Assembly: GCA_032358165.1 (NCBI GenBank)
Contig: JAALGY010000032.1
Coordinates: forward strand, 2,170,001 to 2,234,000
Length of the DNA stretch: 64,000 nucleotides
Origin: Diplosphaera chodatii
Taxonomy: Eukaryota; Chlorophyta; Trebouxiophyceae; Prasiolales; Stichococcaceae
Direction: 5' to 3'
Shown here: one piece after another, positions 25,690-63,940 of the stretch
Position numbering within the stretch: position 1 is the stretch's first letter
Layout of the letters: each line of letters begins with the position of its first letter
Program-made: the position numbers and the translations under genes
The notes under the pieces: generated by a model
What the model saw: the letters and a program-made list of their open reading frames with translations, nothing else
What the model was told of the DNA's origin: nothing
Database searches by the model: none

Positions 25690-26524
25690 GATTCCCGGTG
25701 GCACACACGGCAACGCTGGCCATCTGCCGGTTCTGGAACCGGCTGGTCGCAATGCCGGACACACGCCTCACCAAGCAGGCATTCCTGGAGAACTGTGCTC
25801 TGGCCACCCAGCCGGGGCGCAGCAAGACCAGCTCAGCATGCTGGGCTGCCCAGGTGTGCTCGTTCCTGCACTTCATGTCACCCATCGTTGACGGCGTGCC
25901 GCAGCGCAATGACACTTCGGTTGTCAGTGCACACCTGCAGCGCCACACATTCGATGCTGTGAATGGCAGCGACTTGCGCAAAGTGCGTGAGTGGCCGGGA
26001 GTCAGGGGCCCTGTGAACGGTGACAACTACCAGCTGGCCGGCTACTTGCAGGCAGTCGCCTCCAAGACCGGTCGTCGGCGGTTAGCACAGTTTCGGATGG
26101 GCAGTCACATGCTGGGGGTGGAGACAGGGAGGTGGCAGCGTCTGCCGCGGGCAGAGCGGCTGTGTCAGCGGTGTAGCTGCGGCGTGGTGGATGATGAGGC
26201 GCACATGGTCTGGGGGTGTCCAGCTCTAGTAGATCAGAGGGTGCAGCATTCTGAGCTGTTTCAGGACAGCGACATCACCTCAGTGGCGGACTTTATGCAG
26301 CAAGATGCCGGGCAACTGGCAGCCTTTCTGCGGGTTTGTCATGATCATTGTGCAGAGTTGGAGGGGTGTACATCCAACCGGGATTGAGTGGAACCATCCT
26401 GTCAGCGGGGAGTGAACGGTTTCGGACACGACTCGTTGTGCATGTTGCTCTGGGTTATTCCGCCAGAGCCTGTGGCTAGGCCAAAATGGCCCACCACCAG
26501 TATGTAATCAATGTCAATGTCAAT
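25690..26524 (+). mobile_element. LINE-A, 5'-truncated, inserted in the composite C VNTR
   Basis: Starts at FPVAHTATLAICRFWNRL, ORF stop at 26,387, tail AATGTCAATGTCAAT. The 7-bp TSD GACTCCC lies at 25,683-25,689 and 26,525-26,531. Confidence 0.88.
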
Positions 26525-28860
26525 GACTCCCACCGCCGCTCACCGCCACCTACACCCTCACATCTCACCTGCCAGCACCCGCCGTCGCCTTCACCTTCAC
26601 CTTCGGTCCCATCCTGGACTCCCACCGCCACTCACCCTCACCTACACCCTTACACCTCACCTGTCAGCACCCGCCGTCGCCTTCACCTTCACTTTCGGTC
26701 TCATCCTAGACTCCCACCATCACTCACCTTCACCTACACCCTCGCACCTCACCTGCCAGCACCCGCCGTCGCCTTCACCTTCACTTTCGGTCCCATCCTG
26801 GACTCCCACCGCCGCTCACCGTCACCTACACCCTCACACCTCGCCTGCCAGCACCCCCCGTCGCCATCACCCTCACTTTCGGTCCCATCCTGGACTCCCA
26901 CCGCCGCTCACCGTCACCTACACCCTCACACCTCGCCTGCCAGCACCCCCCGTCGCCATCACCTTCACTTTCGGTCCCATCCTGGACTCCCACCGCCGCT
27001 CACCGTCACCTACACCCTCACACCTCGCCTGCCAGCACCCCCCGTCGCCATCACCTTCACTTTCGGTCCCATCCTGGACTCCCACCGCCGCTCACCGCCA
27101 CCTACACCCTCACACCTCACCTGCCAGCACCCGCCGTCGCCTTCACCTTCACTTTCGGTCTCATCCTGGACTCCCACCATCACTCACCTTCACCTACACC
27201 CTCGCACCTCACCTGCCAGCACCCGCCGTCGCCTTCACCTTCACTTCCGGTCCCATCCTGGACTCCCACCGCCGCTCACCTTCGCCTACACCCTCACACC
27301 TCGCCTGCCAGCACCCCCCGTCGCCATCACCTTCACTTTCGGTCCCATCCTGGACTCCCACCGCCGCTCACCGTCACCTACACCCTCACACCTCGCCTGC
27401 CAGCACCCCCCGTCGCCATCATCTTCACTTTCGGTCCCATCCTGGACTCCCACCGCCGCTCACCGTCACCTACACCCTCACACCTCGCCTGCCAGCACCC
27501 CCCGTCGCCATCACCTTCACTTTCGGTCCCATCTTGGACTCCCACCACCACTCACCTTCACCTACACCCTCACACCTCGCCTGCCAGCACCCCCCGTCGC
27601 CATCACCTTCACTTTCGGTCCCATCCTGGGCTCCCACCGCCGCTCACCGTCACCTACACCCTCACACCTCGCCTGCCAGCACCCCCCGTCGCCATCACCT
27701 TCACTCTCGGTCCCATCCTGGGCTCCCACCGCCGCTCACCGTCACCTACACCCTCACACCTCGCCTGCCAGCACCCGCCGCCGCCTTCACCTTCACTTTC
27801 GGTCCCATCCTGGACTCCCACCGCCGCTCACCGTCACCTACACCCTCACACCTCGCCTGCCAGCACCCGCCGTCGCCTTCACCTTCACTTTCGGTCCCAT
27901 CCTGGGCTCCCACCGCCGCTCACCGTCACCTACACCCTCACACCTCGCCTGCCAGCACCCCCCGTCGCCATCACCTTCACTCTCGGTCCCATCCTGGGCT
28001 CCCACCGCCGCTCACCGTCACCTACACCCTCACACCTCGCCTGCCAGCACCCGCCGCCGCCTTCACCTTCACTTTCGGTCCCATCCTGGACTCCCACCGC
28101 CGCTCACCGTCACCTACACCCTCACACCTCGCCTGCCAGCACCCGCCGTCGCCTTCACCTTCACTTTCGGTCCCATCCTGGACTCCCACCGCCGCTCACC
28201 TTCACCTACATCCTCACACCTCACCTGCCAGCACCCGCCGTCACTACCACCTTCACCTTCAGTCCCATCGTGGACTCCCACCGCCGCTCACCTTCACCTA
28301 CACCCTCACACCTCACCTGCCAGCACCCGCCGTCACCATCACCTTCACCTTCGGTCCCATCCTGGACTCCCACCGCCACTCGCCTTCACCTGCACCCTCG
28401 CACCTCGCCTGCCAGCACCCGCCGCCGCCCTCACCTTCACCTTCGGTCCCATCTTGGACTTCCACCGCCACTCACCTTCACCTACACCCTCCACACCTCG
28501 CCTTCACCCGCCGTCGCCTTCACCTCCACCTTCGGTCCCATCCTGGACTCCCACCACCACTCACCTTCACCTGCACCCTCACACCTCACCTGCTAGCACC
28601 CGCCGTCGCCTTCACCTTCACTTTCGGTCCCATCCTGGACTCCCACCGCCGCTCACCGCCACCTACACCCTCACACCTCACCTGCCAGCACCCGCCGTCG
28701 CCTTCACCTTCACTTTCGGTCCCATCCTGGACTCCCACCACCGCTCACCGTCACCTACACCCTCACACCTCACCTGCCAGCACCCGCCGTCGCCTTCACC
28801 TTCACTTTCGGTCCCATCCTGGACTCCCACCGCCGCTCACCCTCACCTACACGCCCGTAC
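26525..28860 (+). repeat. 92-bp VNTR array (about 25 units) of composite C
   Basis: The period is 92 bp (for example GGTCCCATCC at 26,881 and 26,973). Each unit reads CACCTACACCCTCACACCTC.. CCATCCTGGACTCCCACC. Because 92 is not a multiple of 3 and the units lack forward stops, very long proline/threonine/histidine ORFs appear in more than one frame; I regard these as non-coding. Confidence 0.88.
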
Positions 28861-30379
28861 CTCATCTGCCCAGTCAGCACTGGGCCAAGATCAAGAACAA
28901 GAGCAAGAACAAGACCAAGACCTTAGTAGCATGACAACACCTAGCAGCGGCCACCCGCGGAGCCCGCGCGGATGGGAGCACCTGCCTCAGAAGACCCTGG
29001 TGCCCGGTGTTGTGCATATCGGACAGCTTGCGGCGTCAGCCGCCAGCCCTCTGTTGTTTGCCAGCGCCAGCCCTCAGTCCCTTTGGGTTTGGTTGCTTTC
29101 ACCAGCATGCAGGGCGCCTCGCGGCGTATCCGGTCCCAGCGGGCCCAGAGCTCGGCGTACCTGTACGCAACCGGTCCCTGCATGTCTGCGCGGGGTTTTC
29201 TGGGTTTACCCGCGGGTGCCGTGGCACGTGGACAGACAGACGTTTTGACATTTCTAGAGTGGTAGACCCGCAGCGGTGCGACTTCGCCGCGAGTGCGTGG
29301 CATTGCTGCCGCCGCCGCTAGGTCCCCGCACTTGTACGACCATTAGGTAGCCTTCCTCATCGGGACTATTGCCTTTCGCTGGTCTCATGGGCCCTGCATT
29401 CCCTTGTGGTTTCAGTGTCCTCCATTGACATATTTCGAACATGACGTTTTGATGCCATACTCAGCCGCCCTCACGTTCACACGTGAGAAGCCGCATTGTG
29501 CCGCAGAGCCTTGTTCTTGAGCTTGGTTCTGGTCTGGACGCCCTTTGTAAAAACAATCCAACAAACAACAAACAAAGCCATGAGCGACATGGAGGCTCCT
29601 CCGGGCGACGATGGCGGCGCCCACGATGCTGACCACCCCATGCTCGACAGCGACGGCACTGACACAGCATCAGTAGCCGACGACCAGCCACCTCCCCCAG
29701 CACAACTGCGTCGCACAGGCGACCTCTTGGGCCCCATGGGCCCCATGGGCCCCGCCGCTGCGGACGCTGACCCTCCCATTCAGGTGTTTCCCCAGTTGAC
29801 CCCAGTTCCAGCGACAGACGCTGGCGTCGCCGCCATGGAGACTGACCTTGCCACTCTGGACGGCTCCGCCCGAGCTGCACGACAGGTGTCCAGCTATGCG
29901 GCTGTCCACAGCCGCCTGAGGGCCCCCACCGCGGCCTCTACCCTCGGCCGCATTGGCGCAAGCCCCACTGGGCTTGGCTTCACGGGCGTCTCCACTCGTG
30001 CCCGCAGCCGTACAGCGGCACCTCCGCTGCTAGCACCGCCGTCCGGCGGTCCAGCCGCACCGGCCCCACCACCCGGCACTCAGAGATGGTGCCTGATCCC
30101 ATCCCTGAGGGCTTCGTCTCTCACCTGGTCGATCTGGCTCCGGCGCTCTCGCCACAGGCAGCTGCCGCCGCCCTGCAGGGGGTCCGCCAATCAGAGCCGG
30201 TGGTCTGGAACACCTGGACCACTTGCGGTAATGGACATGCCATCCCTGGCGCGCTGCTGCCATCACTCGACCGCATCCTTCGCCGCCGCGACGACGGCTG
30301 CCCACCGGCCGGCCACTGGGTCCCCCACACAGACGTCGACGTGGCCATCGCCTCGATGCCCGACAGCTATGTCATGGCA

Positions 30380-40513: not shown

Positions 40514-43500
40514 TCAATCCCGGTTGGATGCACACCCCTCCAACTCTGCACATTGATCATGACAACCCCGCAAAAAGGCTGCCAGTTGCCCGGCATCCTG
40601 CTGCATAAAGTCCGCCACTGATGTGATGTTGCTGTCCTCAAACAGCTCCGAATGCTGCACCCTCTGATCTACTAGGGCTGGACACCCCCAGACCATATGC
40701 GCCTCATCATCCACCACGCCGCAGTTACACCGCTGACACAGCCGCTCTGCCCGCGGCAGCCGCTGCCACCTCCCTGTTTCCACCCCCAGCATGTGACTGC
40801 CCATGCGAAACTGTGCTAACCGCCGACGACCGGTCTTGGAGGCGACTGCCTGCAAGTAGCCGGCCATCTGGTAGTTGTCACTGTTCACAGGGCCCCTGAC
40901 TCCCAGCCACTCACGCACTTTGCGCAAGTCGCTGCCATTCACAGCATCGAAGGTGCGGCGCTGCAGGTGTGCAGTGACAACAGATGTGTCAATGCGCTGC
41001 GGCACGCCGTCAACGATGGGTGACATGAAGTGCAGGAACGAACACACCTGGGCAGCCCAGCATGCTGAGCTGCTGGTGCTGCGCCCCGGCCGTGTGGCCA
41101 GAGCACAGTTCTCCAGGAATGCCTGCTTGGTGAGGCGGGTGTCCGGGATTGCGACCAGCCGGTTCCAGAACCGGCAGATGGCCAGCGTTGCCGTGTGCGC
41201 CACTGGGAACCGCCCAAGCTCCCCCAACACCGCCACGTTGGGAGTGCCTGTGCGCACGCCAAGAACAGACCGAAGGAACTTCCGATGGACAAGCTCACAA
41301 GTATCCATGCCAGTACCACATAACGCCCCAGGTCCCCATGTTTCGACACCATATAGCATAACAGGACGTACTAGTGCATCAAACAAATGCAGCTGCAATG
41401 CTGGGTCATGCAGGCTCAGGTCGTGGCAACGATGCTGCAATGCAAGTGCGGCGCGCTGGGCGGAGGCCGCTCTGCCGATGCTAGCGGCAGCAAAAGAACT
41501 ACGAGTAGAGATATCAACCCCCAGATAGGTAAACGAGTCCAGCACTTCGATGGGAGCATGCATGTAGGTGAGAACCGGTGGTGCAGCAGCCTGGGCTGCA
41601 TACACCACGACCTTTGTCTTCTTCACGTTGACGGTGAGGCGCCAGCGCTTGCAGTACGACTCCAGCAGGTCGAGCTGCGCCTGCAGGCCGCGTACGGACG
41701 TGGACACCAGGTCCAGGTCATCTGCATAGAAGAGGGCAGGTGCCTGCACACCACACAGGGTGGGCAGGTCCAGGTCCCCGCCGGCGGCCTCCAGTTCCGC
41801 TTGGAAATCGTCAATGTAGATCCCGAAAAGGGTTGGAGATAGTGGACATCCCTGCTTAACGCCCAAAGTGCTCTGGAATGTATCGGACATTCCCCCCTCA
41901 AACTGCAATGCCATTGGCACATCAGCATACAGTGCCTGAACCCCCCTCAGAAACTCCCCATGCACCCCAATCCGCTGCAGCTTCTCCCAAAGCAAATCAC
42001 GAGGTACAGTATCGTATGCCTTCTTGAAATCGACAAAGCAAGAGTACAGAGGCTGCTTATCTGCCTTGGCCTTCTCGATGAGGGTGCGAACGACGAAGGT
42101 TTGATCGGTGGTGCGGTGGTCCTTGCGGAAGCCCGCCTGTCCGCGTGCGCGCAGCTGGTGCTGCTCGGTCCACCTCATAAGCTTTTCGTTAAGCATGCAA
42201 GCATATAGTTTTGCCAGCAGAGACCCAACAGCAATGCCACGGTAATTACCCGGATCAGATGTGTCGCCCCCCTTATGAATTGGCGTGATGCCGCACAATG
42301 CCCAGCTCCTTGGCAACGCTGCAACTCGTTGACACGAGTTAAAAATACATGCAAGACAGGGTGCAAGCTGCGCCGCTGCAACAGATAAAGCATCCAATTT
42401 GAGCAATCCCACCGTCGCTTTGCCTCCGCGCAGGGCTCCTATAGCCTCTTGCACGGCGCCGGCTGTGAAGGGCGAGTTGAGCTCGCTCCCGTCGGCAAAA
42501 GGTGGCGCAGCCCCACTACCCGAGGTACCTGCAGTGCTTGATGGAAGTGTGGGGGCATCCAGTAGTTTACGGAAGGACTCGAGCATCACATCATCTGCTA
42601 TGGGACAGGACCGCTTCTTAGCAGGTTTGAACTTCTGCCAGAACTTCTTGGAGTCGGTAGAGCGAGCCATTTCAGTGAGAGAAAGAGCCTGACTGCGGGT
42701 CCACTGGCGCTGTGTGCGGCGTAGCAGGTGCTGGTACTGCTGGCGCAGTGCGCGAGCAGCAGCTGACTGCGGGTCGCGACGCGCGGCTTGCCGCGCTGCG
42801 CGGCGCCCGCGGGCCAGTTCAGCGTCCCACCAGCGGGGCACAGCGTTGCGGTCACGCCCCCGCCCCTTGGCGGCCGGCGCTGTTGCAGCCACCTCAGCCT
42901 GCGTGGTCTCGATAAACTGGTCGAACTGCAAGCCCACAGCATGCATGTCATCAGGTACCTGGGCGGCGTCAGCTGCCGTTGCGATGTCGACCAGTTGGGC
43001 TGCTGCATCAAGCTGCTGCAGGCGCTGCTGCCACACTCCCAGCTGCGCTGCGCTGAGGCGCAGGGGCTGCTGGGTTGTGGGCTGCTGCGGTTGCTGCTGC
43101 TGATGGCGGCGGCGCTGGCGACGTGGGAGCGGCTGCTGGGCGGCGGTGGTCCTCTTGATGAGCAAGTGCAGGGCTGCGTGGTCCGACTCGGGAGCAGGGA
43201 GTACTGTTAGGGATTGAATCAGCGGGAATGCATCAGCACTTGCAAGCACATAGTCGATCAGGCTGCTGCCCACCTGACTGTGGCTGACAAAAGTGACTTG
43301 TCCCCCCTCATCTCCTGGGACACGACCGTTAGCAATCCTGAGGGATGTCTCAACACACATGTCAAGCAGAGCCCTGCCCCACTTGTTGGGCCGCTCCCTG
43401 CTGTCGCGGCTGTGCCGCTGTGACTGCACAGGAGGGGCAGTGGAGGGCAGGAACTCTTCTGTGACAGGGTGATCGACAGATCCCGGAAAGTCCGGGCAGG

Positions 43501-43972
43501 TGCTGGTGCGTGCGTTCAGGTCTCCAACAACAAACACATGCCCCATGCGGCAGGTGGCGCTCACCTCCTCACGTAACGCCTCCCAGACCGCAGGGCCTTT
43601 GCCATCAAATGATGGGCTGCCCTCTGGTGGAATGTAACATGCGAACATGTACGCATCCTCCTCCTGGCCAATGGCTTTGTCAAACCTCAAAACAGCGTAG
43701 CAGTTCTGGGGTCCAGTCGATAAGTGTGTTACCATTGGTGCCAGCTTGTCGGCGACGTAGACAGCGATGCCGCCACGTGCGCCGCCACGCTGCTGACGCC
43801 GGCTGCGCGGCAGGTGCAGGACGGACGTGAAGCCGTCCAGCTCCGGCGCATCGCTCCCCTCACGCGCCCACGTCTCGCTGAATGCCAGTACATCGAAGTC
43901 AGCCGCCTTGATGACCTGCGAAAGAGCAGATGCATCTCTGGACAGCCAGCCCTGGACGTTCAGGCTCAGCAC
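40514..43972 (-). CDS. LINE-A ORF2: APE endonuclease, reverse transcriptase, C-terminal zinc finger
   Basis: 1,152 codons from a GTG (VLSLNVQGW) to a stop at 40,514; the frame extends upstream to the ORF1 TAG. APE motifs: SLNVQGW, LAFSETW, CYIPPEG, VVGDLNART and ESDHAALHLL (about residues 1-275). RT motifs: SDPGNYRGIAVGSLLAKLY, QAGFRKDHRTTDQ, CFVDFKKAYDTVPRDLLW (motif A), GVKQGCPLSPTLFGIYIDDF (B) and LFYADDLDLVSTS (C), then VNVKKTKVVVY (D), about residues 540-810. The C-terminus has CQRCNCGVVDDEAHMVWGC, a CCHC-like finger. The first ATG-encoded Met is at about residue 80, after the catalytic Asn and Glu, so independent AUG initiation would give an inactive nuclease. Confidence 0.88.
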   Translation of the reverse strand: MLSLNVQGWLSRDASALSQVIKAADFDVLAFSETWAREGSDAPELDGFTSVLHLPRSRRQQRGGARGGIAVYVADKLAPMVTHLSTGPQNCYAVLRFDKAIGQEEDAYMFACYIPPEGSPSFDGKGPAVWEALREEVSATCRMGHVFVVGDLNARTSTCPDFPGSVDHPVTEEFLPSTAPPVQSQRHSRDSRERPNKWGRALLDMCVETSLRIANGRVPGDEGGQVTFVSHSQVGSSLIDYVLASADAFPLIQSLTVLPAPESDHAALHLLIKRTTAAQQPLPRRQRRRHQQQQPQQPTTQQPLRLSAAQLGVWQQRLQQLDAAAQLVDIATAADAAQVPDDMHAVGLQFDQFIETTQAEVAATAPAAKGRGRDRNAVPRWWDAELARGRRAARQAARRDPQSAAARALRQQYQHLLRRTQRQWTRSQALSLTEMARSTDSKKFWQKFKPAKKRSCPIADDVMLESFRKLLDAPTLPSSTAGTSGSGAAPPFADGSELNSPFTAGAVQEAIGALRGGKATVGLLKLDALSVAAAQLAPCLACIFNSCQRVAALPRSWALCGITPIHKGGDTSDPGNYRGIAVGSLLAKLYACMLNEKLMRWTEQHQLRARGQAGFRKDHRTTDQTFVVRTLIEKAKADKQPLYSCFVDFKKAYDTVPRDLLWEKLQRIGVHGEFLRGVQALYADVPMALQFEGGMSDTFQSTLGVKQGCPLSPTLFGIYIDDFQAELEAAGGDLDLPTLCGVQAPALFYADDLDLVSTSVRGLQAQLDLLESYCKRWRLTVNVKKTKVVVYAAQAAAPPVLTYMHAPIEVLDSFTYLGVDISTRSSFAAASIGRAASAQRAALALQHRCHDLSLHDPALQLHLFDALVRPVMLYGVETWGPGALCGTGMDTCELVHRKFLRSVLGVRTGTPNVAVLGELGRFPVAHTATLAICRFWNRLVAIPDTRLTKQAFLENCALATRPGRSTSSSACWAAQVCSFLHFMSPIVDGVPQRIDTSVVTAHLQRRTFDAVNGSDLRKVREWLGVRGPVNSDNYQMAGYLQAVASKTGRRRLAQFRMGSHMLGVETGRWQRLPRAERLCQRCNCGVVDDEAHMVWGCPALVDQRVQHSELFEDSNITSVADFMQQDAGQLAAFLRGCHDQCAELEGCASNRD

Positions 43973-43995
43973 AGACAGGGCGCTGTTAGGGGACC

Positions 43996-44032
43996 GGATT
44001 GCGCCGGGCGCAGCCCGGCCCCAGCACCCCTA
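43996..44032 (-). promoter_or_regulatory. Candidate stop-codon readthrough element between LINE-A ORF1 and ORF2
   Basis: TAG at 44,032-44,030 is followed by G and a 10-nt spacer, then a perfect GCCGGGC-TGC-GCCCGGC hairpin (44,019-44,003); a downstream GGTCCCC could pair with upstream Gs. Nineteen sense codons connect to the ORF2 reading in the same frame. The element is conserved at 48,554-48,590 and 59,895-59,931, with one spacer substitution. Confidence 0.6.
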
Positions 44033-45442
44033 GCAGACATGGTTGGAGGTGGGTTTGGGTGTGGCTGGCGCCTTTGCTGGAGAGGGTTGTGTGCCCTCAG
44101 CCAGTGTGGGGCCACCAGGTGATGTGTGAGAAGTGGGCTCAACAGGCAGCACAGCAAAGCGTGATGCAATGCCAAGGGGAGCAGCAGCAGGGTGAGGGCC
44201 AAGAGCGCTTGGCCGCCGCTGCCGGCGCGGCGCGAGGTGCTGCTGTGCAAATTGCACAGCATCCGCGGCTGCGCGGCGTGCATTCGCCACTGGAGCTGCA
44301 TCTTGGGCTGCCTGGTGTTGACTCCTGCGCAGCTGTGCCGCTGCGTCACGACGCTGCGGTGCCACGCTCTCAAAGATAGACACTCCGCAAGTGCGGGGAA
44401 GGCGCGCTTTCGCGCTGCACATCCTGCGCACAAACACAGCATCATCGATGCTGACAACAGCCAGGCCGGTCTTCTGCTTGCTGACACGCATGACAGTGAC
44501 ATGCTGTGCAGCATCTTGTAAGCAAAGCTTGCTGGTGCAGAAACCCTGTACTGCCGCTGCGGCAGCATCGCTGCTGCTGCCTGCTGCAAAATCCAGGCCG
44601 CTGAAAACCCACGTTGCTGACCCAGAGCTGCTGCTGCGCGCTGGAAGCCGCGGCTGCTGTTTTGGGTCAATGCTGGGCCGGCTGGTTGCTGCTGGCTGCT
44701 GTGGCAATGTTGCTGCTGGTGCCGTTGCTGGTGTTGCAGGCTGGCTGCTGGGAGCTGCTGGCGCGGTCGCTGCATGCTGCTCTGGGGCTGCATGCGTGGC
44801 CGGTGCCGTCTGCTGCTCCGGGCTGTTGCTGTTGAGCTGTGGCTGCTGCACATGTATCACAAGCTTGACTGACTGGCATTGCTGCTGCAGTGCCGCTTGC
44901 CGATATGTTGCTGCCTCGAGCTTCGACTGCTTCAGCTCGGCCTCAAGAGCCGCAATCCTGTGCAAGTATGGCGCAATGGCTGCGTTAGACGAGGGCTGTG
45001 GGACTGCACAGCCTGCACTGGAATCACCCTGGGCAGTCTGGGCAGTCACGTGATCCTGGTCAGCACCAACTGCAGTTGCATGCACGCATGCGTGTCCATG
45101 CAGGGGGGCCCTTGGTGGCCGCTGCTGAGCAGCAGGCTCTGTATAGGCCTCGCTGATGGGTGCCGCAGTAAGCGTGCAGGACTGCTGCGTCAAATCGGCG
45201 CTGGAGTCCGACACCGAAAACTCTGCAAGTGCAGCGTCCGCAATGCCGTCCATCGGCTCCATAACGGCGTGTATCTGGCGACGAACTGTTTCTGCGTTGG
45301 CACCCCTGCGAACAGATACGTTGTAACGTTTGGCGATCTTCCGGAGTTCGGTCACGTCACTCAGTGATGCAACCGTCGCCCAGTCCATCGCCGCATCTGT
45401 CGAGCACACAACGTCAGAGAACGAACGCGTGCAGATCGTCAT
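44030..45442 (-). CDS. LINE-A ORF1 protein: coiled coil plus RRM-like domain
   Basis: ATG at 45,442, 470 residues, stop TAG (44,032-44,030). The N-terminal ~60 residues contain a helix-turn-helix-like VTELRKIAKRYNVSVRRGAN (SAP-like). Residues ~165-205 are a coiled coil (IAALEAELKQSKLEAATYRQ). A Gln/Ala/Pro-rich linker follows, then an RRM-like region (TWVFSGLDFAAG .. HVTVMRVSKQKTGLAVVSI) at about residues 285-360 and a basic tail. This order resembles L1 ORF1p (coiled coil, RRM, basic C-terminus), suggesting an RNA-binding trimeric chaperone; that is inference. The same frame continues into ORF2 beyond the stop. Confidence 0.8.
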   Translation of the reverse strand: MTICTRSFSDVVCSTDAAMDWATVASLSDVTELRKIAKRYNVSVRRGANAETVRRQIHAVMEPMDGIADAALAEFSVSDSSADLTQQSCTLTAAPISEAYTEPAAQQRPPRAPLHGHACVHATAVGADQDHVTAQTAQGDSSAGCAVPQPSSNAAIAPYLHRIAALEAELKQSKLEAATYRQAALQQQCQSVKLVIHVQQPQLNSNSPEQQTAPATHAAPEQHAATAPAAPSSQPATPATAPAATLPQQPAATSRPSIDPKQQPRLPARSSSSGSATWVFSGLDFAAGSSSDAAAAAVQGFCTSKLCLQDAAQHVTVMRVSKQKTGLAVVSIDDAVFVRRMCSAKARLPRTCGVSIFESVAPQRRDAAAQLRRSQHQAAQDAAPVANARRAAADAVQFAQQHLAPRRQRRPSALGPHPAAAPLGIASRFAVLPVEPTSHTSPGGPTLAEGTQPSPAKAPATPKPTSNHVC

Positions 45443-48255: not shown

Positions 48256-49518
48256 ACCATGCAGCCAGCACCATGCAGCCCAGGACGCAGCTCCGGTGGC
48301 GAACGCACGCCGCGCAGCCGCAGATGCTATGCAATTTGCACAGCATCACCTTGCGCCGCGCCGGCAGCGGCGGCCAAGCGCTCTTGGCCCTCACCCTGCT
48401 GTTGCTCCCCTTGGCATTGCATCACGCTTTGCTGTGCTGCCTGTTGAGCCCACTTCTCACACATCAGCTGGTGGCCCCACTTTGGCTGAGGACATATCAC
48501 CCTCTCCAGCAAAGGCGCCAGCCACCCCCAAACCCACCCCCAACCATGTCTGCTAGGGGTGTTGGGGCCGGGCTGCGCCCGGCGCAATCCGGTCCCCTAA
48601 CAGCGCCCTGTCTGTGCTGAGCCTGAACGTCCAGGGGTGGCTGACCAGAGATGCATCTGCGCTATCGCAGGTCATCAAGGCGGCTGACTTCGACGTGCTG
48701 GCCTTCAGCGAGACGTGGGCGCGGGAGGGGACCGACGCGCCGGAGCTGGACGGCTTCACATCCGTCCTTCACCTGCCGCGGAGCCGGCGTCAGCAGCGTG
48801 GCGGTGCACGTGGCGGCCTCGCTGTCTACGTCGCCGACAAGCTTGCATCATCGGTGACACACTTGTCAACTGGACCCCAAAACTGCTATGCTGTTTTGAG
48901 GTTTGACAAGGCTGTCGGTCAGGAGGAGGATGCTTACATGATTCCATGCTACATACCACCCGAGGGAAGCCCATCCTTTGATGGCAAGGGCCCTGCGGTC
49001 TGGGAGGCGTTACGTGAGGAGGTGAGCGCCACCTGCCGCATGGGGCATGTGTTTGTTGTTGGAGACTTGAACGCACGCACCAGCACCTGCCCGGACTTTC
49101 CGGGATCTGTCGATCACCCTGTCACAGAGGAGTTCCTGCCCTCCACCGCCCCTCCTGTGCAGTCACAGCGGCACAGCCGCGACAGCAGGGAGCGGCCCAA
49201 CAGGTGGGGCAGGGCTCTGCTTGACATGTGTGTTGAGACATCCGTCAGGATTGCTAACGGTCGTGTTTCAGGAGATGAGGAGGGACAGGTCACTTTTGTT
49301 AGCCAAAGTCAGGTGGGCAGCAGCCTGATTGACTATGTGCTTGCAAGTGCTGATGCATTCCCTTTGATTCATTCCCTAACAGTACTCCCCGCTCCTGAGT
49401 CGGACCATGCAGCCTTGCATCTGCTCATCAAGAGGACCGCCGCCGCTCAGCAGCCGCTCCCACGTCGCCAGCGCCGCCGCCATCAGCAGCAGCAACCGCA
49501 GCAGCCCACGACCCAGCA
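48256..49518 (+). mobile_element. LINE-A 5' half: ORF1 end plus endonuclease, fused to unrelated sequence
   Basis: Starts in the ORF1 C-terminal region, contains the TAG (48,554-48,556) and hairpin, and then the APE endonuclease frame (48,614-49,518: SLNVQGW, LAFSETW, VVGDLNART, ESDHAALHLL) up to RRRHQQQQPQQPTTQ. It breaks off before the RT; the frame runs on to 49,582 in foreign sequence. It is an endonuclease-only ORF in two tandem copies (again at 59,597-60,859). Confidence 0.82.
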
Positions 49519-50489: not shown

Positions 50490-52920
50490 AACACCCGCCG
50501 CCTGCCACTCGCTGCACCCTGGTCTGAGTGCTACCCACCGCGCCGCCGCCGCCGCCAACACCAGCCTGCCGCCTTCGCCAGCATCCGCACCACCCTCAGC
50601 CTGCCACCTGCTGCACCCTCGTCTGAGTGCTGCCCACCGCCTGCCGCCGCCGCCACCACCAGCCTGCCTCCCTGCAGCATCCGCCACTACCCTCAGCCTG
50701 CCACCTGCTGCACCTTGCTCTGAGTGTTGCCCATTGCGCCTCCGCCGCCATCACCAGCCTGCCGTCGTCACCACCATCCACCCTCAGCCTGCCGCCTGCT
50801 GCACCCTAACCTGGGTGCTGCCCGCTGCCTGCCGCCGCCGCCAACACCAGCCTGCCATCCTCACCACCACCCACACCACCCTCAGCCTGCCACCTGCTGC
50901 ACCCTGGTCTGAGTGCTGCCCGCTGCCTGCCGCCGCCGCCAACACCAGCCTGCCATCTTCACCACCATCCACACCACCCTCAGCCTGCCACCTGCTGCAC
51001 CCTGGTCTGAGTGCTGCCCGCTGCCTGCCGCCGCCGCCAACACCAGCCTGCCATCTTCACCACCATCCACACCACCCTCAGCCTGCCACCTGCTGCACCC
51101 TGATCTGAGTGCTGCCCGCTGCCTGCCGCCGCCGCCAACACCAGCCTGCCGTCTTCACCACCATCCACACCACCCTCAGCCTGCCACCTGCTGCACCCTG
51201 GTCTGAGTGCTGCCCGCTGCCTGCCGCCGCCGCCAACACCAGCCTGCCATCTTCACCACCATCCACACCACCCTCAGCCTGCCACCTGCTGCACCCTGGT
51301 CTGAGTGCCGCCCGCTGCCTGCCGCCGCCGCCAACACCAGCCTGCCGTCTTCGCCACCATCTACACCACCCTCAGCCTGCCACCTGCTGCACCCAGTATG
51401 TAATCAATGTCAATGTCACCCTGATCTGAGTGCTGCCCGCTGCCTGCCGCCGCCGCCAACACCAGCCTGCCATCCTCACCACCACCCACACCACCCACAG
51501 CCTGCCACCTGCTGCACCCTGGTCTGAGTGCCGCCCGCCGCCTGCCGCCGCCGCCAACGCCAGCCTGCCATCCTCACCACCACCCACACCACCCTCAGCC
51601 TGCAACCCGCTGCACCTTGATCTGAGTGCCGCCCACCGCCTGCCGCCGCCGCCAACGCCAGCCTGCCATCCTCACCACCATCCATACCACCCTCAGTCTG
51701 CAACCCGCTGCACCTCGATCTGAGTGCTGCCCGCCGCCTACCGCCGCCGCCGCCACCAGCCTGCCGTCGTCACCACCATCCACACACCCTCAGCCTGTCA
51801 TCTGCTGCACCCTCGTCTGAGTGCTGCCCACCGCCTGCCGCCGCCGCCAACACCAGCCTGCCATCCTCACCACCACCCACACCACCCACAGCCTGCCACC
51901 TGCTGCACCCTGGTCTGAGTGCCGCCCGCCGCCTGCCGCCGCCGCCAACACCAGCCTGCCATCCTCACCACCACCCACACCACCCTCAGCCTGCCACCTG
52001 CTGCACCTTGATCTGAGTGCCGCCCGCCGCCTGCCGCCGCCGCCAACGCCAGCCTGCCATCCTCGCCACCACCCACACCACCCTCAGCCTGCAACCCGCT
52101 GCACCTTGATCTGAGTGCCGCCCGCCGCCTGCCGCCGCCGCCAACGCCAGCCTGCCATCCTCACCACCATCCATACCACCCTCAGTCTGCAACCCGCTGC
52201 ACCTCGATCTGAGTGCTGCCCGCCGCCTACCGCCGCCGCCGCCACCAGCCTGCCGTCGTCACCACCATCCACACACCCTCAGCCTGTCATCTGCTGCACC
52301 CTCGTCTGAGTGCTGCCCACCGCCTGCCGCCGCCGCCACCACCAGCCTGCCTCCCTGCAGCATCCGCCACTACCCTCAGCCTGCCACCTGCTGCACCCTG
52401 GTCTGAGTGCTGCCCACCGCTTGCCGCCGCCGCCATCACCAGCCTGCCTCCCTGCAGCATCCGCCACTACCCTCGGCCTGCCACCTGCTGCACCTTGCTC
52501 TGAGTGTTGCCCATTGCGCCGCCGCCGCCATCACCAGCCTGCCGTCGTCACCACCATCCACACACCCTCAGCCTGCCGCCTGCTGCACCCTGACCTGACT
52601 GCTGCCCACCGCCTACCGCCGCCGCCAACACCAGCCTGCCATCTCCACCACCATCCACACCACCCACAGCCTGCCACCTGTTGCACCCTGATCTGGGTGC
52701 TGCCCGCTGCCTGCCGCCGCCGCCGACCCCAGCCTTTCGTCTTCGCCACCATCCACCCCACCCTCAGCCTGCCGCCTGCTGCACCCTGGTCTGAGTGCTG
52801 CCCACCGCCTGCCGCCGCCGCCATCACCAGCCTGCCTCCCTCCAGCATCCGCCACTACCCTCAGCCTGCCGCCTGCTGCACCTTGCTCTGAGTGCTGCCC
52901 AGCACTGCTGCCCAGCACTT
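50490..52920 (+). repeat. VNTR-E array 2 (98-bp units)
   Basis: About 24 units with a clear 98-bp step (for example 50,784, 50,882, 50,980, 51,078). It contains a 22-bp LINE-A tail at 51,395-51,416. Its right part matches 15,060-15,345. Compared with array 3 it has three extra units. Confidence 0.87.
51395..51416 (+). mobile_element. 22-bp LINE-A micro-insertion in VNTR-E
   Basis: AGTATGTAATCAATGTCAAT.. flanked by CACCC on both sides (51,390-51,394 and 51,417-51,421). It is absent from the duplicate array at 61.8-63.9 kb, so it postdates the duplication or was lost there. Confidence 0.85.
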
Positions 52921-53147
52921 GCCTGCCGCCCACGCCACAACCCTCCCTCCCCACCCCTTCAGCATGCTTCCCGCCACGCCCACCGCCCCCCAACCCCCAA
53001 CAGCTAGGCCCTTGCCCACACATGGCCGCAGCAGCAGCCGCCATCGCCGCCATCGCCCCTCACCAATACACAAACATCCTTCCGGTCAAAGGTTCTCTTT
53101 TCCATCGCTATTTGCAACTTCCCTTACCGCTTTCCATTCCACTCACC
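52921..53147 (+). other. Spacer between VNTR-E and LINE-A, carrying a truncated SINE-D
   Basis: Same C-rich spacer as 15,346-15,509, but with a SINE-D 3' fragment and its TSD inserted at 53,065-53,147. No gene. Confidence 0.6.
53065..53141 (+). mobile_element. SINE-D copy 8, 77 bp, 5'-truncated at the internal hairpin
   Basis: Starts AATACACAAACA, the 3' arm of the SINE inverted repeat, and ends GCTTTCCATTCCA. TSD CTCACC is at 53,059-53,064 and 53,142-53,147. The paralogous site at 15,504-15,509 has CTCACC once and no SINE. Confidence 0.88.
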
Positions 53148-59596: not shown

Positions 59597-60859
59597 ACCA
59601 TGCAGCCAGCACCATGCAGCCCAGGACGCAGCTCCGGTGGCGAACGCACGCCGCGCAGCCGCAGATGCTATGCAATTTGCACAGCATCACCTTGCGCCGC
59701 GCCGGCAGCGGCGGCCAAGCGCTCTTGGCCCTCACCCTGCTGTTGCTCCCCTTGGCATTGCATCACGCTTTGCTGTGCTGCCTGTTGAGCCCACTTCTCA
59801 CACATCAGCTGGTGGCCCCACTTTGGCTGAGGGCATATCACCCTCTCCAGCAAAGGCGCCAGCCACCCCCAAACCCACCCCCAACCATGTCTGCTAGGGG
59901 TGTTGGGGCCGGGCTGCGCCCGGCGCAATCCGGTCCCCTAACAGCGCCCTGTCTGTGCTGAGCCTGAACGTCCAGGGGTGGCTGACCAGAGATGCATCTG
60001 CGCTATCGCAGGTCATCAAGGCGGCTGACTTCGACGTGCTGGCCTTCAGCGAGACGTGGGCGCGGGAGGGGACCGACGCGCCGGAGCTGGACGGCTTCAC
60101 ATCCGTCCTTCACCTGCCGCGGAGCCGGCGTCAGCAGCGTGGCGGTGCACGTGGCGGCCTCGCTGTCTACGTCGCCGACAAGCTTGCATCATCGGTGACA
60201 CACTTGTCAACTGGACCCCAAAACTGCTATGCTGTTTTGAGGTTTGACAAGGCTGTCGGTCAGGAGGAGGATGCTTACATGATTCCATGCTACATACCAC
60301 CCGAGGGAAGCCCATCCTTTGATGGCAAGGGCCCTGCGGTCTGGGAGGCGTTACGTGAGGAGGTGAGCGCCACCTGCCGCATGGGGCATGTGTTTGTTGT
60401 TGGAGACTTGAACGCACGCACCAGCACCTGCCCGGACTTTCCGGGATCTGTCGATCACCCTGTCACAGAGGAGTTCCTGCCCTCCACCGCCCCTCCTGTG
60501 CAGTCACAGCGGCACAGCCGCGACAGCAGGGAGCGGCCCAACAGGTGGGGCAGGGCTCTGCTTGACATGTGTGTTGAGACATCCGTCAGGATTGCTAACG
60601 GTCGTGTTTCAGGAGATGAGGAGGGACAGGTCACTTTTGTTAGCCAAAGTCAGGTGGGCAGCAGCCTGATTGACTATGTGCTTGCAAGTGCTGATGCATT
60701 CCCTTTGATTCATTCCCTAACAGTACTCCCCGCTCCTGAGTCGGACCATGCAGCCTTGCATCTGCTCATCAAGAGGACCGCCGCCGCTCAGCAGCCGCTC
60801 CCACGTCGCCAGCGCCGCCGCCATCAGCAGCAGCAACCGCAGCAGCCCACGACCCAGCA
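59597..60859 (+). mobile_element. LINE-A 5' half, tandem duplicate of 48,256-49,518
   Basis: TAG at 59,895-59,897, the hairpin, and the endonuclease frame from 59,955. Differs from the first copy at very few positions (for example GAGGACATAT to GAGGGCATAT near 59,831). Confidence 0.85.
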
Positions 60860-61830: not shown

Positions 61831-63940
61831 AACACCCGCCGCCTGCCACTCGCTGCACCCTGGTCTGAGTGCTACCCACCGCGCCGCCGCCGCCGCCAAC
61901 ACCAGCCTGCCGCCTTCGCCAGCATCCGCACCACCCTCAGCCTGCCACCTGCTGCACCCTCGTCTGAGTGCTGCCCACCGCCTGCCGCCGCCGCCACCAC
62001 CAGCCTGCCTCCCTGCAGCATCCGCCACTACCCTCAGCCTGCCACCTGCTGCACCTTGCTCTGAGTGTTGCCCATTGCGCCTCCGCCGCCATCACCAGCC
62101 TGCCGTCGTCACCACCATCCACCCTCAGCCTGCCGCCTGCTGCACCCTAACCTGGGTGCTGCCCGCTGCCTGCCGCCGCCGCCAACACCAGCCTGCCATC
62201 CTCACCACCACCCACACCACCCTCAGCCTGCCACCTGCTGCACCCTGGTCTGAGTGCTGCCCGCTGCCTGCCGCCGCCGCCAACACCAGCCTGCCATCTT
62301 CACCACCATCCACACCACCCTCAGCCTGCCACCTGCTGCACCCTGGTCTGAGTGCTGCCCGCTGCCTGCCGCCGCCGCCAACACCAGCCTGCCATCTTCA
62401 CCACCATCCACACCACCCTCAGCCTGCCACCTGCTGCACCCGGGTCTGAGTGCCGCCCGCTGCCTGCCGCCGCCGCCAACACCAGCCTGCCGTCTTCGCC
62501 ACCATCTACACCACCCTCAGCCTGCCACCTGCTGCACCCTGATCTGAGTGCTGCCCGCTGCCTGCCGCCGCCGCCAACACCAGCCTGCCATCCTCACCAC
62601 CACCCACACCACCTACTGCCTGCCACCTGCTGCACCCTGGTCTGAGTGCCGCCCGCCGCCTGCCGCCGCCGCCAACACCAGCCTGCCATCTTCACCACCA
62701 TCCATACCACCCTCAGTCTGCAACCCGCTGCACCTCGATCTGAGTGCTGCCCGCCGCCTACCGCCGCCGCCGCCACCAGCCTGCCGTCGTCACCACCATC
62801 CACACACCCTCAGCCTGTCATCTGCTGCACCCTCGTCTGAGTGCTGCCCACCGCCTGCCGCCGCCGCCAACACCAGCCTGCCATCCTCACCACCACCCAC
62901 ACCACCCACAGCCTGCCACCTGCTGCACCCTGGTCTGAGTGCCGCCCGCCGCCTGCCGCCGCCGCCAACACCAGCCTGCCATCCTCACCACCACCCACAC
63001 CACCCTCAGCCTGCCACCTGCTGCACCTTGATCTGAGTGCCGCCCGCCGCCTGCCGCCGCCGCCAACGCCAGCCTGCCATCCTCGCCACCACCCACACCA
63101 CCCTCAGCCTGCAACCCGCTGCACCTTGATCTGAGTGCCGCCCGCCGCCTGCCGCCGCCGCCAACGCCAGCCTGCCATCCTCACCACCATCCATACCACC
63201 CTCAGTCTGCAACCCGCTGCACCTCGATCTGAGTGCTGCCCGCCGCCTACCGCCGCCGCCGCCACCAGCCTGCCGTCGTCACCACCATCCACACACCCTC
63301 AGCCTGTCATCTGCTGCACCCTCGTCTGAGTGCTGCCCACCGCCTGCCGCCGCCGCCACCACCAGCCTGCCTCCCTGCAGCATCCGCCACTACCCTCAGC
63401 CTGCCACCTGCTGCACCCTGGTCTGAGTGCTGCCCACCGCTTGCCGCCGCCGCCATCACCAGCCTGCCTCCCTGCAGCATCCGCCACTACCCTCGGCCTG
63501 CCACCTGCTGCACCTTGCTCTGAGTGTTGCCCATTGCGCCGCCGCCGCCATCACCAGCCTGCCGTCGTCACCACCATCCACACACCCTCAGCCTGCCGCC
63601 TGCTGCACCCTGACCTGACTGCTGCCCACCGCCTGCCGCCGCCGCCAACACCAGCCTGCCATCTCCACCACCATCCACACCACCCACAGCCTGCCACCTG
63701 TTGCACCCTGATCTGGGTGCTGCCCGCTGCCTGCCGCCGCCGCCGACCCCAGCCTTTCGTCTTCGCCACCATCCACCCCACCCTCAGCCTGCCGCCTGCT
63801 GCACCCTGGTCTGAGTGCTGCCCACCGCCTGCCGCCGCCGCCATCACCAGCCTGCCTCCCTCCAGCATCCGCCACTACCCTCAGCCTGCCGCCTGCTGCA
63901 CCTTGCTCTGAGTGCTGCCCAGCACTGCTGCCCAGCACTT
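61831..63940 (+). repeat. VNTR-E array 3 (98-bp units)
   Basis: Same start and end as array 2 but 321 bp shorter: three 98-bp units (294 bp) plus the 27 bp of the LINE-A micro-insertion with its TSD. The window ends in the spacer that precedes LINE-A in the other copy. Confidence 0.87.

Follow-up and report, generated by a model that had tools for sequence, protein, structure and literature searches.

Long interspersed nuclear elements (LINEs) produce small amounts of ORF2 protein from a bicistronic RNA, and how they do so is not settled. An intact copy of LINE-A, an element of the green alga Diplosphaera chodatii, lies on the minus strand of a window of 64,000 nucleotides (nt), the whole stretch of DNA that we analysed (assembly GCA_032358165.1, contig JAALGY010000032.1, positions 2,170,001 to 2,234,000; coordinates below are those of the window). 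Its first open reading frame (ORF1) ends in a TAG, and ORF2 follows directly in the same frame without an ATG ahead of its endonuclease motifs. We observed that this layout is invariant among the copies examined, that ORF2 is selected in the frame of ORF1, that codon choice after the stop is biased towards RNA structure and that the layout recurs in a distant LINE, L099. From these observations we infer that ribosomes read through the UAG and that a downstream stem stimulates them to do so. Judged from sequence, type III programmed UAG readthrough yielding an ORF1–ORF2 protein of ~1642 residues is the probable explanation. Most ribosomes would halt at the UAG and leave ORF1p, while a minority would decode UAG-GGG-UGY as sense, aided by the strong stem 7 nt downstream, and would enter ORF2, so that the ~1642-residue fusion would arise in a small, constant proportion, much as gammaretroviruses produce gag-pol. 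The features of the junction are as follows.

44033–45442, minus strand: ORF1, 470 codons, with its ATG at 45442.
44030–44032, minus strand: the ORF1 stop TAG, the proposed readthrough site, present in 54 of 54 copies that cover it.
44023–44029, minus strand: 7-nt spacer, reading GGGTGCT here and GGGTGTT where other subfamilies are concerned; its GGG (+4 to +6) is invariant, and the distant L099 has TAG-GGG-TGT.
43990–44022, minus strand: predicted stimulatory stem-loop of 9 base pairs (bp) plus 5 bp, with a 1x1 internal loop and a 3-nt loop; fold of -25.9 kcal/mol, examined in synonymous-redraw tests.
44003–44019, minus strand: 7-bp hairpin, an alternative fold within the longer stem; one pair is lost in two of eight distinct alignment rows.
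40517–44029, minus strand: ORF2, 1171 codons, encoding an APE endonuclease and a reverse transcriptase (RT); stop TGA at 40516–40514.
44038–44040, minus strand: AUG located 8 nt upstream of the TAG and in the +1 frame, opening 24 codons; a possible reinitiation decoy, kept in 51 of 53 covering copies.
48554–48556, plus strand: the TAG junction again, in a subfamily-B copy that is truncated and duplicated.
59895–59897, plus strand: the TAG junction in the second copy of the same duplicated block.

The sequence and the ORF translation bore out an initial annotation of this locus, which had placed the end of ORF1 at the TAG at 44032–44030 and had described the codons after it as open and in frame with the APE/RT ORF; this frame continues through all 1171 codons to the TGA. 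ORF2 also lacks an in-frame ATG upstream of the endonuclease motifs, as had been claimed, although its earliest methionine is residue 99 and not about residue 80. Pfam places the Exo_endo_phos/APE domain at residues 21–284 and the reverse transcriptase at residues 584–839, and we take LINE-A to be an L1-type LINE. The junction reads TAG-GGG-TGC-TGG-G and runs into a hairpin of 7 perfectly matched bp around a 3-nt loop. This hairpin is the one that the annotation had described; it starts 10 nt past the TAG with the G counted in, rather than after a G plus a 10-nt spacer. The AUG at -8, with A at its -3 position, is the only one within 60 nt upstream of the TAG and is in the +1 frame, as is the next AUG downstream of the junction, at +97. 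We found no start codon overlapping the TAG in the frame of ORF2. Reassignment of TAG as a sense codon was considered and judged unlikely for this element: neither ORF1 nor ORF2 has an internal TAG, and their 117 glutamine codons are all CAA or CAG. The ORF1 product has a predicted long helix (residues 152–186) and an RRM-like domain (276–359), and ORF1p is probably an RNA-binding protein. A Foldseek structural search with ORF1 gave weak matches, and any resemblance to the coiled coil and RRM-like domain of L1 ORF1p is weak.

To the window we added 60 loci from the genome, 20 of them long (most 6.8 kb) and 40 of ~500 bases. A DNA search of the genome had 70 candidates, 40 of them scored, and a protein search gave 94 matches; matches starting well inside ORF2, which are unable to show the junction, were mostly left out. 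Six loci (L080, L082, L087, L088, L095 and L096) gave no junction row. After two overlaps of the same copy were dropped, the 59 aligned rows represented 57 distinct copies, of which 54 span the stop and three begin just past it. All 54 keep the TAG, and all 54 keep GGG at +4 to +6. Among the copies examined there was no sense codon in place of the stop, no frame-shifted majority form and no ATG-started ORF2. A pattern scan of the junction that allowed up to three mismatches anywhere returned 57 sites (23 exact, 32 with one mismatch and two with two). TAG-GGG stood in 57 of 57, with no mismatch ever falling in the TAG or the GGG; the two double-mismatch sites alter the first base of the 7-bp stem. 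These 57 sites lie on 27 of 55 contigs (C26:2214003-2229895 among them), those of each contig within at most 69 kb, and the other 28 contigs have none; the contigs are not proven chromosomes.

The long loci and the window together contain 23 distinct copies. Six of them have the 470-codon ORF1, and five of these six also have the full ORF2. The five intact ORF1–TAG–ORF2 copies (the window copy, L049, L051, L052 and L054) show no difference over 4929 nt and have different flanks, which indicates that the source element itself carries the TAG. We take LINE-A to be a recently active element. We also observed that L039, L059, L060 and L079 are 5′-truncated at -3, +7, +9 and +10, within 14 nt of one another and beside unrelated flanks; this clustering around the TAG possibly reflects drop-off of the reverse transcriptase near the stem. 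L062, L064 and L086, which belong to one cluster on contig C46, have a common in-frame insertion of 6 nt in the stem-loop region. The arrangement reported at 48,554 and 59,895 of the window is indeed present, the sole nearby downstream change being C to T at +8 (counting the T of TAG as 0). These two copies are not independent of each other. Both show 94 differences from the 44,030 copy over 1000 nt, the two agreeing in their number of synonymous changes and in their number of nonsynonymous changes, and a repeat finder aligned both at 93% to the same stretch. Both lack the 470-codon ORF1, and their ORF2 frame is broken after 341 codons. Their junctions appear to sit in one duplicated block (48263–49518 and 59604–60859).

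The sequence after the TAG is predicted to be strongly structured. When the 4.9-kb coding region is folded in 50-nt windows, the one beginning at +4 ranks first in stability of 4878. We compared this region with synonymous redraws in which codons were drawn from the usage of ORF2 itself. Over the 54 nt that follow the TAG the folding energy is -37.8, compared with -21.9 (standard deviation 3.6) in the redraws, none of 2000 being as low, and the folding energy of the 40 nt that start 7 nt after the TAG was reached by one redraw in 2000. Codon choice right after the stop ranked first of 180 segments along ORF1 and ORF2 (z score -4.55; next -3.39). Across the 64-kb window, with the sequence of LINE-A itself not set apart, two of 6396 sampled 54-nt stretches were equally stable, as was the 3′ stretch of one of 270 ORF stops. 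When the 7 nt after the UAG are kept single-stranded, GGGGCCGGG pairs with UCCGGUCCC in the preferred fold and an inner 5-bp stem is added, giving a predicted interrupted stem of 14 bp that begins at the eighth nucleotide after the TAG. This 9 + 5 bp stem is more stable than the 7-bp hairpin, and on these models it, rather than the hairpin, is likely to be the stimulatory structure. The readthrough to a fusion of ~1,640 residues proposed in the initial annotation withstands the comparative tests available; its stimulator is more likely to be the longer stem. For pairing we aligned ten rows chosen for their variants out of the 57 copies, eight of them distinct, and all 14 stem pairs stand in the eight distinct rows. 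In L061 (contig C27) and L097 (C46), a G-to-A change turns a G-U pair of the long stem into A-U and breaks a pair of the 7-bp hairpin. The C46 rows with the 6-nt insertion retain 14 of 14 pairs as aligned. A search of Rfam at the junction gave sub-threshold matches only.

Consistent with translation of ORF2 in the frame of ORF1, the sequence after the stop bears the marks of selection. Subfamily B, which is ~95% identical to the 44,030 copy over 378 nt at the junction, was compared with that copy through the B fragments of the window. Across the 320 codons that follow the TAG, the ratio of nonsynonymous to synonymous differences per site (pN/pS) was 0.11 in frame 0, and the pattern was reversed in the other two frames. 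Of the variants common to at least two copies, ten were synonymous and two were not after the TAG, compared with eight and seven before it. By these measures purifying selection acts on ORF2 in frame 0, beginning at the stop. Protein collections contained 24 relatives of ORF2 (7990 candidates scored), of which 16 were aligned, at 95 to 42% identity. The peptide between the stop and the endonuclease, AIRSPNSALSV in the window, is SRSPDSPLSV in P0006, AIRSPPEHLSI in P0008 and AARSGSRPLSV in P0013, and its retention in some relatives points to translation of frame 0 ahead of residue 20. Gene callers start several of the relatives at the residue-20 position, where LINE-A has GTG.

We found no ORF1–ORF2 fusion protein among these 24 matches or among the five matches to a junction-spanning query (6919 candidates). 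The ORF2 matches are 694 to 1220 residues long, except for two weak, distant ones (1461 and 1360 residues) that cover 21–26%, and the five matches to the junction-spanning query cover 44–46% of that query, which fits a match to its ORF2 part. There were also five relatives of ORF1. Four of them (P0025–P0028, 89 to 74% identical) end at NHVC, and the fifth, P0029, differs in its C-terminal part and covers only 67% of the query. The AUG at -8 of LINE-A lies within the codons for this NHVC terminus kept in the four relatives.

We scanned prokaryote genome contigs for DNA relatives and obtained two, L099 and L100; scans of viral contigs gave none. The L099 contig is binned in a cyanobacterial metagenome-assembled genome and L100 in a deltaproteobacterial one, and both look like eukaryotic contamination. 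The ORF2 of L099 is 33% identical to that of LINE-A, and its ORF1 has no detectable similarity to LINE-A ORF1. The ORF1 of L099 ends in a TAG directly in frame with ORF2, with no stop between them, and its ORF2 has its first methionine at residue 121. Its context, TAG-GGG-TGT-GGG, compares with TAG-GGG-TGY-TGG-GG in LINE-A. L100 has an upstream ORF with zinc-finger-like cysteines in a different frame from its RT ORF, so that the in-frame layout is not universal. A search of the D. chodatii genome with L099 returned the LINE-A family plus weak or partial matches. The other LINE in the window has an ATG about 14 codons upstream of the endonuclease motif; the missing ORF2 start is therefore not general to LINEs in this genome.

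The junction resembles viral readthrough signals. As set out in the available text of PMC3542737, type III readthrough involves UAG, a following G or purine-rich stretch and a 3′ structure commonly ~8 nt downstream; examples are gammaretrovirus gag-pol (UAG-G), Tombusviridae replicase (UAG-GGR) and rice stripe necrosis benyvirus (UAG-GGG). LINE-A shares with these signals the UAG followed by G and purines, a predicted structure ~8 nt downstream and a polymerase-type ORF in frame. It differs in its LINE host, in having a long interrupted stem-loop as its predicted fold rather than a compact pseudoknot and in lacking AA before the stop. The eight nucleotides after its UAG are GGGUGYUG: the adjacent position is G and the GGG is invariant, yet pyrimidines are present too. 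A cautionary case is Candida Tca2, a long terminal repeat element whose gag/pol stop likewise has a purine-rich context and a predicted structure; readthrough was tested there and was not supported, according to the sections of PMC7175516 available. By analogy, the Tca2 outcome counsels caution about predicted readthrough in LINE-A.

Several results weigh against readthrough. The bases before the TAG of LINE-A are GC, whereas AA before the stop favours readthrough in many viral cases (PMC3542737, in part). Dinucleotide shuffling, a milder control, gave z scores of only -1.7 to -2.2 for the structure, a result that is less striking because the stretch is GC-rich. Around the stem, subfamilies A and B show no significant conservation of synonymous sites over three ranges (P = 0.06, 0.14 and 0.25), and retention of the pairs is consistent support for the long stem but not covariation, the pairs being almost invariant. 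Invariance among the copies is itself partly recent descent within one young family, and for that reason tells more about the source element than about long-term selection. The relatives P0001–P0016 were compared as protein sequences. L099 is a single distant case, and folding tests after its TAG found no local structure (z = +0.13, +1.35 and +0.84); either its stimulator lies elsewhere or the structure is lineage-specific. Two further points of this kind are AUGs that could hint at termination–reinitiation, in which a ribosome held by the structure restarts ORF2 nearby, either without an AUG or from the AUG at -8 with a subsequent shift of frame. In LINE-A that AUG lies close to the stop with A at -3 and is kept in nearly all copies that cover it, and L099 has an AUG at -23 (1069–1071), in the +1 frame and opening 65 codons, with a GGGCCCT heptamer at -12. 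The main rival to readthrough is reinitiation, because SART1 too needs a downstream structure (PMC5972666, in part). Like LINE-A, SART1 is a non-LTR element with RNA structure downstream of the ORF1 stop, but as described in that partial text it has an overlapping stop–start, whereas LINE-A has no in-frame start; the same text reports termination–reinitiation for SART1 and a proposal of it for mammalian L1. The AUGs of LINE-A and L099 are, however, both in the +1 frame and not that of ORF2. No X XXY YYZ heptamer for a -1 slip occurs in the +1 frame from the AUG at -8 to its stop; a frameshift from this AUG was judged unlikely. A shift at the L099 heptamer would lead into frame 0 before the TAG, so that the TAG would still be met. 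Frame-0 residues before the endonuclease are also conserved in some relatives, and readthrough requires the two ORFs to abut directly in frame, which reinitiation does not. We therefore regard reinitiation as unlikely.

Internal or non-AUG initiation would give a free ORF2 protein and would make the stop and hairpin incidental, or an internal entry element. It would account for an ORF2 without a usable AUG and for the gene-caller starts at the residue-20 position, but the invariant TAG-GGG, the context in L099 and the four ORF1 relatives sharing their end residue would all be unexpected, and we think it improbable. Splicing could instead remove the TAG, with TAG-G as the 3′ splice acceptor and ORF2 made from a spliced mRNA. 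In its favour is the sequence CTGCTAG-G, which we take, unscored, to resemble such an acceptor. However, 53 of the 54 TAG-covering copies carry 111 nt or more of uninterrupted ORF1 upstream, the remaining one, L039, is truncated at -3 beside unrelated sequence, and the other copies truncated nearby begin at +7, +9 and +10 and not at +4. This evidence is indirect, as a spliced RNA need not leave genomic copies; splicing is very improbable. Least credible is that the layout arose by accident in a family that is dead or dying. Many copies are fragmentary, as the scarcity of intact ORF1 and ORF2 frames shows, but five identical intact copies at different sites, purifying selection between subfamilies and the same layout in a distant LINE all speak against decay. 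With these alternatives weighed, readthrough stays the probable explanation for LINE-A. Whether it extends further is evenly balanced: a green-algal L1-type lineage may use UAG readthrough, with UAG-GGG-UGY outlasting the recognisability of ORF1 and the fused protein as its normal product.

LINE-A can also be set beside known LINEs. It shares with human LINE-1 an ORF2 with APE and RT domains, but differs from human L1, whose spacer is 63 nt long and whose ORF2 has its own AUG (PMC5972666, in part). Zepp and ZeppL are centromeric L1 LINEs of green algae that form clusters at presumed centromeres, according to the available portions of PMC3446292 and PMC8226300. LINE-A resembles them in its APE and RT, in its many 5′-truncated copies and in the nesting of some copies within others of the family. 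On each contig where they were found its junction copies lie in a single stretch, which may correspond to the one cluster per chromosome of Zepp and ZeppL. The portions of those two accounts available make no mention of readthrough. The window further contains repeat arrays with units of 92 and 98 nt (26433–28939, 50704–52983 and 62045–63649).

Within a partial coverage of the literature, which the original 1997 description of Zepp lies outside, we found no report of readthrough in LINEs or in ZeppL ORFs, and the cases of LINE ORF2 expression reviewed in the available text of PMC5972666 are reinitiation-like. Readthrough and L1-type LINEs are each known; their combination with a conserved signal is, to our knowledge, new. 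If true, readthrough in LINE-A would mean that a LINE has converged on the retroviral gag-pol solution and would imply joint delivery of ORF1p and ORF2p in a single fused protein. The clusters of LINE-A may resemble green-algal centromeres, and the ratio of ORF1 to fusion product could bear on the maintenance of such regions.

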